Shown here: positions 28,563-32,938 of the stretch, in pieces
Layout of the letters: each line of letters begins with the position of its first letter
Position numbering within the stretch: the first letter of the stretch is position 1
Source of the DNA: Candidatus Latescibacterota bacterium
Lineage (GTDB): Bacteria > JAAXHH01
Assembly: GCA_022823465.1 (NCBI GenBank)
Contig: JAJEHX010000015.1
Span: forward strand, 1-40,060
Reading direction: 5' to 3'
DNA: 40,060 bases
Notes under the pieces: model-generated
Databases searched by the model: none
What the model saw: only the letters and a program-made list of their open reading frames with translations
What the model was told of the DNA's origin: nothing
Made by a program: the position numbers and the translations under genes

Positions 28563-28788
28563 TCCCCGCCGCGCTCAACGCACACCTGTGCCGTCCACGG
28601 AGCATGGAGCCCTTTGCGCGCCTGGCTGACTGTTCCTGACCTCCTTAAATCTCAATTGACAAAACCCCCTGATGACGGCTTTTTGATCAGGCTGTAATCC
28701 ACTTGTTTGTTGATTCGTTGGATGGGTTGAAACCAGGCGATCCATTCAACCTTGCGTTCGAACCGGGTTTTTGATCAAGGAAACACGC

Positions 28789-29559
28789 ATGTCCATATTG
28801 GATGCATTCAGACTGGATGGCAAAACCGCACTCGTAACCGGCTGCCGCAGGGGGATCGGCAGGGGCCTTGCGGAGGCGCTGGCCGAAGCAGGCGCGGATA
28901 TCATCGGTGTAAGCGCATCGATGGAGACGTCCGGAAGCGAAATCGAAGGAGCGATCACGGCCCTTGGCCGTAGGTTTACAGGTTACAGCGCCGATCTTAA
29001 CGACCGGGACGCGTTGTATGATTTCGTCCGCAGGGTCAAGGCCGATTTTCCGGTAATCGACATCCTCGTGAACAACGCCGGCTTGACGCTGCGGGCACCG
29101 GCCGCGGAGCACTCCGACGAGTACTGGGACACGGTCCTGAACGTGAACCTGCACGCGCCGTTCATCCTAAGCCGGGAAATCGGCCGGGACATGGTGGCTC
29201 GCGGCAAAGGCAAGATCGTGTTTACCGCCTCCGTGCTTTCCTTTCAGGGCGGTATCACGGTACCCAGTTACGCGGCCTCCAAGGGAGCGATCGCGCAACT
29301 GGCCATGGCCCTGTCCAACGAATGGGCGTCGCAGGGCGTCAACGTAAACGGTATCGCGCCGGGGTATATCGCGACGGACCTGACTTCCGCGCTGCAGACC
29401 GACCCGGAGCGGTCCCGAACCATATCCGAGCGCATCCCCGCCGGCCGCTGGGGCGCCCCGGAAGATCTCAAAGGCGCCGTGGTCTACCTCACCTCGGATG
29501 CGTCCAATTACGTCAACGGGGCGATCCTGACCGTCGATGGCGGCTGGATGGGCAGGTGA
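28789..29559 (+). CDS. Short-chain dehydrogenase/reductase (gluconate/2-deoxy-gluconate dehydrogenase-like)
   Basis: A 256-residue classical SDR. The cofactor motif is TGCRRGIG (T17-G24), with NNAG at 95-98. The catalytic residues are S148, Y161 and K165 (YAASK). The C-terminus ends DGGWMGR, as in KduD/gluconate 5-dehydrogenase-like members. ATG 28789 has AGGA 7 nt upstream; TTG 28771 would extend it by six residues. It opens a rightward run: PhyH dioxygenase, the Sec-type CMD protein, then TauD. The substrate is probably a sugar acid or polyol; this is inferred from the subfamily look only. Confidence 0.9.
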   Translation: MSILDAFRLDGKTALVTGCRRGIGRGLAEALAEAGADIIGVSASMETSGSEIEGAITALGRRFTGYSADLNDRDALYDFVRRVKADFPVIDILVNNAGLTLRAPAAEHSDEYWDTVLNVNLHAPFILSREIGRDMVARGKGKIVFTASVLSFQGGITVPSYAASKGAIAQLAMALSNEWASQGVNVNGIAPGYIATDLTSALQTDPERSRTISERIPAGRWGAPEDLKGAVVYLTSDASNYVNGAILTVDGGWMGR

Positions 29560-29675
29560 CCGCCCGCCGCGCTTGCGGTTTAATTGCCGGGTGTTTTGAT
29601 GCCGCCGAATCGACGGACCGAAACGCGATCGCTGACGCCACGGTATTTGCTGACTGAAAAGGTAGCGCACAGTCC

Positions 29676-30524
29676 ATGCCTTCGGACTACGCCCACTTAT
29701 TGACCGACGACGAGAAGTGGCATTTCGACCTGCGGGGATTCCTGCATCTGCGCGGCGTGATCGCGCCGGAACGCCTGGCGCGCATCCTGGAGGTCACTGA
29801 TCGCTGGCTTACCGCGGACGAATCCGAAATACCCGCACCGGTTTTCAGACACCGCCAGGAGCCCTACAAGACACATTTGGACCACATCCAGTACGGGCAC
29901 AGGCTGTTCCAGGACCTGAACGCCGATCCGGAGATCATCCGCGTGGTGGCGGGCCTGACCATGGGCATGCCCCGGCTTTTTCACTGCAATTTCACGAAAA
30001 TGGACCGCGCGGCGCCGGGTGACGAAGACCACCAGGCCTATCACCGGGACGACAGTGGCTTCAAATTCCCACCGGGTTTCCGGAATCCCCACAACGACTA
30101 CCAGGCGGCGGGCGGCGAGATCTACTGCAGCCACCTGGCCACCTGGATCGCGCTGGCGGACGTGCCCGCGGGAACGGGTTTCAGCCTGGTGCCCGGCAGC
30201 CACAAATCGGTCTTCGGCACGCCTGAGGGACTGAAGGTCGGCGACCACCCGCCCGTATCGATCACCGTACCCATGGACGCGGGCGACGTCCTCGTGTTTT
30301 CGACCCACGCGCTGCACGACGCGGCGGTGTGGACGCAGGACTATCCCAGGATGAACATCTTCCAGCGCTACCAGCTCAGCGCCTATTTCAACGAAACCGG
30401 CAAGGGCGGGCTGCCCTTCGACGAGTACAAGGATCAAATCTCCGAAGAGGAGTACGAACTCGAATCGTTGAGTAAAGAGGAAAAGGCCGCCGTGACCCGG
30501 ATGCGGTGCCACTTCGGACTGTAG
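29676..30524 (+). CDS. Phytanoyl-CoA dioxygenase (PhyH) family protein
   Basis: A 282-residue Fe(II)/2-oxoglutarate-dependent hydroxylase. The iron triad is H123-R-D125 (AYHRDDSG) and a distal His (H211 in FSTHALHDAAVW, or H214), with R225 (YPRMNIFQRYQ) as the likely 2-oxoglutarate ligand. The family is hugely expanded in uncultured marine and soil lineages; substrates include lipids, ectoine and secondary metabolites. It has normal length and no signal peptide. The next gene starts 20 bp later with its own strong ribosome site, so they are probably co-transcribed. Confidence 0.9.
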   Translation: MPSDYAHLLTDDEKWHFDLRGFLHLRGVIAPERLARILEVTDRWLTADESEIPAPVFRHRQEPYKTHLDHIQYGHRLFQDLNADPEIIRVVAGLTMGMPRLFHCNFTKMDRAAPGDEDHQAYHRDDSGFKFPPGFRNPHNDYQAAGGEIYCSHLATWIALADVPAGTGFSLVPGSHKSVFGTPEGLKVGDHPPVSITVPMDAGDVLVFSTHALHDAAVWTQDYPRMNIFQRYQLSAYFNETGKGGLPFDEYKDQISEEEYELESLSKEEKAAVTRMRCHFGL

Positions 30525-30544
30525 TCAACCCACAGGAGATCACC

Positions 30545-31108
30545 ATGGCGTGGATACGCACCATCGACGAATCGGAAGCGGAAGGCCCGCTGGAAAGGAT
30601 CTACCAGGGCTCGATGCGCTCGTGGGGCGGCGTGGACAACATCATCAAGGCCCACAGCCTCAACGTGCAGGCGCTGCGGGCCCTGATGACCTTCTACAAG
30701 GGCCTCATGCACGGGGACTGCGACCTCACGCTGGGACAGCGGGAGATGATCGCGACGACCGTCTCGGCCCTGAACGAGTGCGAGTACTGAGTCCGCCATC
30801 ATGGGGAGGGGCTCCTCAGAGAGATCAACGACCGTGAACTGGTGGACGCGATCAAGAAGGACTACCGCGAGGCGGACCTGGATACCGCCGACCGCGCCAT
30901 GCTGGACTACGTCCGCAAGCTGACCCTGGCGCCTGCTTCGACCACGGAGGCGGACATCAATGCGTTGCGGCAGGCGGGTTTCGGCGACAAGGCGATCCTG
31001 GAGATCAACCAGATCACGGGTTTCTTCGCCTGGTGCAACCGGACGGTGGACGGCCTGGGGGTGGAGCTCGAAGCGTTCTGGGACGATCCGAACGCGACCA
31101 ACGTCTAG
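30545..31108 (+). CDS. CMD/AhpD-like peroxidase-related selenoprotein (in-frame TGA read as Sec at residue 82)
   Basis: A 187-residue protein if TGA 30788-30790 is read through. Upstream, AGGAG sits 6 nt before ATG 30545 and the frame reads MIATTVSALNECEY. After TGA the same frame continues VRHHGEGLLREI and on to NQITGFFAWCNRTVDGLGVELEAFW. The AhpD/carboxymuconolactone decarboxylase family needs E-C-x-x-C-x-x-H-H here; the TGA sits exactly at the second Cys, giving C79-E-Y-U82-V-R-H-H. Both halves align without frameshift, stop or gap, and a hairpin fits a bacterial SECIS. AhpD-like selenoproteins are known from marine metagenomes. Such proteins act as thiol peroxidases or reductants. It is the third gene of the SDR-PhyH-CMD-TauD run. 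The alternative is a pseudogene with one TGC/TGT-to-TGA change. Confidence 0.8.
30791..30829 (+). promoter_or_regulatory. Candidate bacterial SECIS element
   Basis: After the TGA (30788-30790), bases 30802-30808 (TGGGGAG) pair with 30812-30818 (CTCCTCA). They form a 7-bp stem with one G-U pair and a GGG loop at 30809-30811. There are 18 bases between the TGA and the loop, inside the 16-37 range known for bSECIS, and the loop starts with G, as the SelB contact requires. It lies within coding sequence, as bacterial SECIS must. Confidence 0.6.
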
Positions 31109-31178
31109 ACACGGCCAGTGTACAAGGGCCAATATCCAGACGCGGCCAATGTCTAGACGCGGCCAATGCACAGGGGCC
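31103..31178 (+). repeat. Direct repeats with GGCCAAT core upstream of the tauD-like gene
   Basis: A 28-bp unit at 31103-31130 recurs at 31151-31178 with four transitions (24 of 28 identical). Between and within them AGACGCGGCCAATG occurs twice exactly (31138-31151 and 31155-31168), 17 bases apart. The first unit overlaps the stop codon of the CMD gene. It could be regulator sites or slippage products. Confidence 0.8.
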
Positions 31179-31245
31179 GGAAAACCACGCAATGCAATGA
31201 ACCCCGGAATCGATTTCAAGGGGAGAGCCGTGTTTAAGAGGAACG

Positions 31246-32049
31246 ATGGATCCGTTTGAAGTCATACCAACCGGCGGTGCCCTCGGCGCGGAGGTGCGCG
31301 GCCTCGATCTGCGAAATGAACTGGACGCGGTGACCGTGCGCCTGGTGCGCGGCGCCTTTCTCGATCACGGTGTGCTGTATTTTCGCGATCAGCGGATCAG
31401 CCAGGCCGACCTGGTTCGGTTCACCCGGTACTTCGGCGACCCTGTTCCCCATGTGAGGCCGCAACCGGACCGTCCCATTAAGGAAATCTTCGTCATCTCC
31501 AACGTGACCGAGGACGGCAAGCCCATCGGGGCCCTCGGAAGCGAGGAGATTCCTTTTCATTCCGATCTGTCCTACCTGCCGGAACCCGGTACCATCTCCA
31601 TGCTTTACGCGTTGGAGATCCCGGATAAGGGCGGCGAAACGATGTGGGCCAGCGGGTACGCGGCCTACGAGGCCCTCGATCCCGATTTGAAGCAGAACAT
31701 CGACCGGCTTCATGCGGTCCACCGCCATCCCATCGATGCGCTGAACACCCCGGAACCCACGATGCACCCCGTCGTGCGCACCCACCCGGAGACGGGACGC
31801 AAGGTCATCTACGTCAGTCCCCACCTGACCCACCACATCGCGGATCTGGCACGGAAAGAAGGCAAGGTCTTGCTGGAGGAATTGATCGCCCACGCGATCG
31901 ATGGACGATTTGTCTGGAAGCACCAGTGGCGGGTCGGGGACCTGGTCATGTGGGACAACCGCTGCACCATGCACCGACGCACGCCCTTCGACGACCGGCA
32001 ACGCCGCGTCATGTGGCGAACGCAGGTTTTCGGCGCGGGGACTGGCTAG
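31246..32049 (+). CDS. TauD/TfdA family Fe(II)/2-oxoglutarate dioxygenase
   Basis: A 267-residue hydroxylase. The iron facial triad is H105-S-D107 (FHSDLSY) and H243 (TMHRRTPFDD), with R254 region (RQRRVMWR) for 2-oxoglutarate. The N-terminal start MDPFEVIPTGGALGAEVRGL is typical. Members cleave taurine, alkylsulfonates, phenoxyacetates or carnitine-type substrates; which applies is not visible, and no sulfonate transporter is adjacent. AGAGGA lies 4 nt before ATG. It ends the rightward run begun by the SDR and is convergent with the MBL hydrolase. Confidence 0.92.
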   Translation: MDPFEVIPTGGALGAEVRGLDLRNELDAVTVRLVRGAFLDHGVLYFRDQRISQADLVRFTRYFGDPVPHVRPQPDRPIKEIFVISNVTEDGKPIGALGSEEIPFHSDLSYLPEPGTISMLYALEIPDKGGETMWASGYAAYEALDPDLKQNIDRLHAVHRHPIDALNTPEPTMHPVVRTHPETGRKVIYVSPHLTHHIADLARKEGKVLLEELIAHAIDGRFVWKHQWRVGDLVMWDNRCTMHRRTPFDDRQRRVMWRTQVFGAGTG

Positions 32050-32050
32050 T

Positions 32051-32068
32051 CAGAACGCGCCAATATCC
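32051..32068 (+). repeat. Degenerate copy of the GGCCAAT repeat downstream of tauD-like gene
   Basis: CAGAACGCGCCAATATCC resembles the upstream units; its GCCAATATCC is identical to 31128-31137. The repeat family therefore flanks the tauD-like gene on both sides. Confidence 0.55.
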
Positions 32069-32082
32069 GGCCGGGCCCGGCC
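32069..32082. terminator. GC-rich palindrome between convergent genes
   Basis: GGCCGGGCCCGGCC is a perfect 14-bp palindrome between the convergent TauD and MBL genes; as RNA it folds to a 5-bp stem with a GGCC loop. It has no T-run, so a bidirectional terminator role is tentative. Confidence 0.35.
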
Positions 32083-32107
32083 TGTCTGGCGACCTTGGTC
32101 ACGCAAA

Positions 32108-32938
32108 CTACCGGTTCAATTCCACCGCTTCGAATCCGAACCGGTCCTCACCCTCGCTGAAGATCCTGCCCGATGACGCGCTGGCGTCATGGTCCAGGAC
32201 GATGATCCACCCCTCGTCGGCCGCCTGCCTGAGCAAACGCATCTTGGATACCATGGTATCGTAGGGAAACAGGTCGTAGGCCATGTTGTAAGGGGCGCGC
32301 AGGTGGGTCGTCATGGGCAGTATATCGCCTGAATACACGGCCCGGGTATCACCGGACTCTACCTTTACCAGTTGGTGGTATCGTGTATGTCCGCCGGTGA
32401 CCTCCACGCTGATCCCCTCCTCGATCTCCACGTTGCCTTCCAGCAGGGTCAGCACGCCCTGGTCCATCAAAGGCTGATAGTTCTCCGGGCGATAGGTGGT
32501 CTTCATGGTTCCGTAATCGTTCAGCGCGTCTTCCCATTCGCCTCTTTGAACCACGTACTGCGCATTGGGGAAAGCGGGCACGACCCCGCCTTCGTCGTCA
32601 GTCCGGGTCGCACCGCCCGCATGGTCGAAATGGAGGTGGCTCAGGATGACGAGATCGATGTCTTCCGCGGATACGCCCTGGGCCGACAAAGACCCAAGGA
32701 TGGTGGGCCCCGACATGTCGTAGATGCCGCGGTCGCGGTCGGTCATCTTACCGCCGTAGCCCGTGTCGACCAGGATGTTGCGGCCGTCTTTCCGGATGAG
32801 GAGACAGTTGGTGTCGTTGGTGATCCGGTTCAGTTCGTCGGGAGGACAGATCTTCTGCCAGAGCGGCTTCGGAACGATACCGAACATGCTCCCGCCATCC
32901 AGTTTGAATACGCCGCCGCTTACGACAGACAGTTCCAC
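32108..32938 (-). CDS. Metallo-beta-lactamase-fold hydrolase (lactonase-like)
   Basis: A 276-residue MBL-fold enzyme. The dizinc motif is H101-L-H103-F-D105-H106 (SHLHFDHAGG), with further ligands in GHTRYHQ and YSGDILP, and the terminal LDHDAS. The layout resembles N-acyl-homoserine-lactone lactonases and related esterases; the substrate is not determined. The GTG start at 32938 has AAGGAG 7 nt upstream. The promoter candidate overlaps that of the divergent deaminase gene. It lies next to the oxidative gene run and is convergent with tauD. Confidence 0.9.
   Translation of the reverse strand: MELSVVSGGVFKLDGGSMFGIVPKPLWQKICPPDELNRITNDTNCLLIRKDGRNILVDTGYGGKMTDRDRGIYDMSGPTILGSLSAQGVSAEDIDLVILSHLHFDHAGGATRTDDEGGVVPAFPNAQYVVQRGEWEDALNDYGTMKTTYRPENYQPLMDQGVLTLLEGNVEIEEGISVEVTGGHTRYHQLVKVESGDTRAVYSGDILPMTTHLRAPYNMAYDLFPYDTMVSKMRLLRQAADEGWIIVLDHDASASSGRIFSEGEDRFGFEAVELNR

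Follow-up and report, generated by a model that had tools for sequence, protein, structure and literature searches.

A predicted AhpD-like selenoprotein gene with a CxxU motif in a Latescibacterota-related bacterium

Introduction

An AhpD-like selenoprotein family with a CxxU motif was reported in the Sargasso Sea survey of 2005 (PMC1088965), and an "AhpD-like protein, TIGR01926, CxxU" is listed in a 2026 review. The GOS survey of 2008 counted 299 selenocysteine (Sec) and 902 cysteine (Cys) forms of the AhpD-like family (PMC2398784). In AhpD-type proteins the redox pair belongs to a relay, which in P. aeruginosa PA0269 consists of E36, C48, Y50, C51 and H55 (PMC3141380). In the published model of the bacterial SECIS the loop has 3-9 nt with a G in its first two positions and the stem 4-16 bp, the hairpin being placed 16-37 nt from the UGA and having an MFE of at most -7.5 kcal/mol (PMC13188914).

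The gene described here is a further example of the selenoprotein family listed since the Sargasso Sea survey, and the initial annotation of this DNA was correct that marine bacteria have known AhpD-like selenoproteins of the CxxU type (PMC1088965). With AhpD-like 1 (COG2128, TIGR01926, CxxU) it shares the family model, the position of the CxxU motif and a bacterial SECIS that follows the UGA directly (PMC1088965, PMC2398784, PMC13188914), but it comes from a lineage whose Sec machinery is complete, and the sampled phylum yielded no Cys form, whereas the GOS data held both forms. Two further families have a related domain: the AhpD-related (seleno)protein NF041238 (CFYUT), which also has a CxxU motif, and the YciW-related (seleno)protein NF053654. 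The gene is a member of neither, scoring 51.8 bits against a cut-off of 175 for the former and 28.4 bits against 310 for the latter. M. tuberculosis AhpD and PA0269 have the same relay spacing, E-x11-C-x-(H/Y)-C-x3-H (PMC3141380), but in our gene the second Cys is Sec and the full-length family is TIGR01926, not AhpD itself. No dedicated selenoprotein study on Latescibacterota-related bacteria was found in the literature searched.

Results

We analyzed a stretch of 40,060 nucleotides, hereafter called the window. Its plus strand contains a frame of 187 codons at 30545-31108, which starts with ATG at 30545, ends with TAG at 31106-31108 and is interrupted only by a TGA at 30788-30790 (codon 82), as the initial annotation had described. 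A Shine-Dalgarno-like GGAG (30535-30538, plus strand) can be read within AGGAGA ahead of the ATG, and a GGAG or GGGAG-type motif precedes most of the genus orthologues at a similar spacing. When the 88 TGA-interrupted frames of the window are compared by the GC3 of their weaker side, this one ranks first, and the orthologues carry the same single TGA; the broken frame is therefore more than chance. Right behind the stop codon, at 31103-31180, lie short imperfect repeats of about TCTAGACGCGGCCAATGT in roughly three copies. The window gave no match in an Rfam scan at gathering thresholds, and no tRNA genes were found in it.

The read-through product matched TIGR01926, a peroxidase-related (AhpD-like) family, with an E-value of 2.7e-41 and 141.3 bits, above the curated cut-off of 81.8, over residues 2-173 (profile positions 1-173 of 178). 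The two halves had been claimed to lie in one frame and to belong to one family, and each indeed matched TIGR01926 separately, the N-terminal half at 3.8e-11 (profile 1-81) and the C-terminal half at 6.4e-22 (profile 85-173), so that the matches are consecutive and in order. The Pfam CMD match (residues 43-97) runs across the TGA; the C-terminal half alone had no match in Pfam, while it did in NCBIfam. Around the TGA the product reads E78-C79-E80-Y81-U82-V83-R84-H85-H86 (context NECEYUVRHHGEGL), which puts the in-frame UGA where CxxC has its second redox cysteine, as proposed; four homologues (L041, L044, L045 and L131) have Cys in this column. Its PDB relatives, 2pfx (3.7e-30) and 6k40, named "AhpD", indicate that the product probably adopts the AhpD fold. 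E67, C79, Y81, U82 and H86 stand at the fixed spacing of the AhpD-type relay, E-x11-C-x-Y-U-x3-H, the same as in PA0269, which also has Tyr in place of His.

The TGA is kept in 13 of 13 close orthologues. Ten of the 11 other genomes of the genus have an orthologue of 90-93% identity with exactly one TGA, and in the eleventh (G009, 87% complete) only a paralogue was found. All 33 family members found in 16 genomes of the phylum contain one TGA each, and no Cys codon was found at the U82 column in these genomes. The closest named records are MAGs that carry the label Candidatus Latescibacterota or, in some cases, Gemmatimonadetes. We further collected 87 homologues, a set drawn for the most part from many phyla by way of the 80 best named genome contigs. 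In it the codon at the U82 column is TGA in 82, TGC in three, TGT in one and GGA in one; because the scan used two peptide patterns typical of the query's clade, the set is biased to that clade and these counts give no estimate of the family-wide Sec/Cys ratio. The GGA (Gly) codon is in L130 (3001-3543; CP070677.1, Latescibacterota bin70) and means either that Sec has been lost or that a TGA was misread at one base in sequencing; given this codon, Sec seems not to be indispensable everywhere. Two selenoprotein homologues from planctomycete-type MAGs (L128 and L132) have one extra TAA or TAG inside the matched frame.

Across the 13 orthologues, pN/pS was 0.177 before the TGA and 0.202 after it, which shows equal purifying selection on both sides. 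The codons surrounding the UGA and the hairpin described below had the smallest number of synonymous differences.

A candidate bacterial SECIS was predicted at 30802-30818 (plus strand) by folding and comparative tests. The hairpin has a 7-bp stem, UGGGGAG/CUCCUCA, with one G-U pair and an apical GGG loop of 3 nt at 30809-30811; the stem begins 12 nt and the loop 18 nt after the UGA, and with -9.1 kcal/mol it lies within all limits of the model. Despite many synonymous sites, GGGGAGGG(G/A)CTCCTCAGAGA is constant across the 13 orthologues save one base in one sequence. A SECIS-type hairpin was present in 62 of 69 distinct homologues, related by descent so that the hairpins are not independent events, compared with 11.8 (sd 2.9, max 19) in 200 synonymous shuffles, and at other offsets in the same genes it occurred in 0-13 of 68-69. 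The stems differ in sequence while pairing is kept (ACGGAG/CUCCGU, UGGGGAG/CUCCUCA, ACGCAGA/UCUGCGU, UGAGGAG/CUCCUCA). Folding z-scores against synonymous shuffles were -1.15 and -1.13 in segments starting 0 and 6 nt past the UGA and -0.65 at 12 nt, and ranged from -0.60 to +0.27 elsewhere in the gene. Taken singly, the hairpin of our sequence did not clearly exceed dinucleotide shuffles in stability (z -1.0 to +1.4), and no consensus emerged when 70 homologues were folded with plain RNAalifold, probably because the stem registers are shifted by about two bases among homologues. These null results are resolved by the synonymous-shuffle tests, and the support for a SECIS is comparative, not a matter of single-sequence stability.

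The genome to which the window belongs (3.86 Mb, 55 contigs, 98% complete) contains a tRNA-Sec gene (70.6 bits), which ARAGORN reports as tRNA-SeC with anticodon tca. On the same contig and just upstream of the tRNA gene is selB (350 bits), whose product carries the beta-barrel and winged-helix domains of SelB, and selA (492 bits) and selD (254 bits) are also present. The genome thus has selA, selB, selC and selD, the set expected of a selenoprotein-making organism; the initial annotation had asked for this search and had held that a lack of selB or selC would refute Sec. The weaker tRNA-Sec matches that were inspected proved to be ordinary tRNA-Ser and tRNA-Leu genes. selB above cut-off was not found in G009 and G015, two fragmented genomes that have TGA-containing members, and tRNA-Sec was not found at the strict setting in G009, G012 and G015, perhaps owing to incompleteness. 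In our genome (C46; L024:1396-3741, minus strand) selD is part of a fusion in which a pyridine nucleotide-disulfide oxidoreductase domain comes first, giving a protein of 781 aa of the Ndh-SelD type, a fusion described previously (PMC2398784).

Directly upstream of the selenoprotein gene is a gene for a PhyH-family Fe(II)/2-oxoglutarate dioxygenase (29676-30524, plus strand; PF05721, 4.1e-11), which ends 20 nt before it and is probably co-transcribed with it. A PhyH gene occupies this place in 10 of 10 other genus orthologues. A short-chain dehydrogenase (SDR) gene (28771-29559, plus strand) precedes the pair, and a TauD/TfdA-family dioxygenase gene (31246-32049, plus strand; PF02668, 4.7e-69) follows. 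The order SDR, PhyH, selenoprotein and TauD, together with an MBL-fold gene encoded on the opposite strand (28771-32938 in the window), was kept in the 10 genus loci examined. This arrangement suggests that the selenoprotein may be tied to oxygenase chemistry.

Discussion

Computed support covers the frame, the family, the conserved UGA, the SECIS, the Sec machinery and purifying selection. From it we infer actual Sec insertion, and with very high confidence we read the gene as encoding an AhpD-like selenoprotein of 187 residues, in which the UGA would be decoded via SelB and the hairpin and C79 and U82 would carry out redox chemistry. The claim that the TGA is a functional Sec codon and not a stop is supported by the machinery, the conservation of the UGA, the equal constraint, the SECIS and the use of TGA as a stop elsewhere; the SECIS evidence, which the initial annotation lacked, agrees with it.

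A Cys gene (TGC/TGT) that acquired a nonsense mutation and is now decaying, or a sequencing error, would give the same picture if the TGA were isolated in a single assembly. It is instead shared by all 13 close orthologues from separate genomes and by 82 of the 87 homologues, and pN/pS downstream of it is 0.20. The initial annotation had named two more observations that would refute its Sec reading, further lesions beside the TGA in sister genomes and a Cys codon in its place in clean reads; the sister genomes keep the TGA in an intact frame with no further lesion, and the 16 phylum genomes yielded no Cys codon at that column. We regard a pseudogene or an error as extremely improbable and as ruled out by the orthologues. 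Reassignment of TGA in this genome, for example to Trp, is a point on which a single TGA in a frame cannot decide by itself, but of the window's 28 main ORFs 12 terminate in TGA, which is therefore still a stop in this genome. Two of the orthologues (L028 and L039) also use TGA as their own stop codon, and the U82 column is Cys, not Trp, in most of the relatives lacking TGA. With TGA in normal use as a stop, reassignment is ruled out, and its probability is close to nil.

The function of the Sec-containing product leaves more room. It may be a thiol/selenol adaptor or disulfide oxidoreductase instead of a peroxidase, perhaps serving the adjacent dioxygenases, a possibility that we take seriously while not favoring it. 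M. tuberculosis AhpD itself serves AhpC as an adaptor (PMC3141380), the selenoprotein gene has PhyH and TauD genes on its two sides throughout the genus, and an order-level relative (L063) also has a PhyH-family gene upstream. In L062, however, the upstream neighbor is a BNR-repeat-like protein and not PhyH, which argues that the dioxygenase link is lineage-restricted. A broader proposal, which we consider rather unlikely, would have Sec as ancestral and nearly obligatory in this TIGR01926 clade, and the protein recruited in this genus, in a conserved operon, as redox partner of the adjacent Fe(II)/2-oxoglutarate dioxygenases.

In our preferred reading, in which the selenoprotein has peroxidase-type chemistry, codon 82 would be decoded by Sec-tRNA(UCA), brought by SelB recognizing the hairpin past the UGA. 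C79-x-x-U82 would form the catalytic pair within the AhpD fold, with E67, Y81 and H86 in the relay. The expected chemistry would pair a U82 selenol with the thiol of C79: the U82 selenolate would most likely attack a hydroperoxide (or a disulfide partner) and then form a selenenyl-sulfide with C79, which a cellular thiol system would reduce.

With this locus, uncultured Latescibacterota-related bacteria gain a Sec gene that comes with both machinery and SECIS. What is new is a lineage in which no Cys form was found, together with a second Sec paralogue and the conserved SDR-PhyH-selenoprotein-TauD neighborhood. In our clade-biased homologue set the nearest cross-phylum relatives are almost all Sec forms, as against the excess of Cys forms in the ocean survey. 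Gene finders that treat each UGA as a stop will probably split or shorten such genes. Latescibacterota of sponges have been published (PMC12993501), and an origin of the source bacterium from a sponge is plausible. The second, about 41% identical family member in the same genome (C30:73789-74238, minus strand) likewise has one in-frame TGA, and the sequence in its orthologues from the genus (L050-L056) is NRCVYUIDSHAEF.
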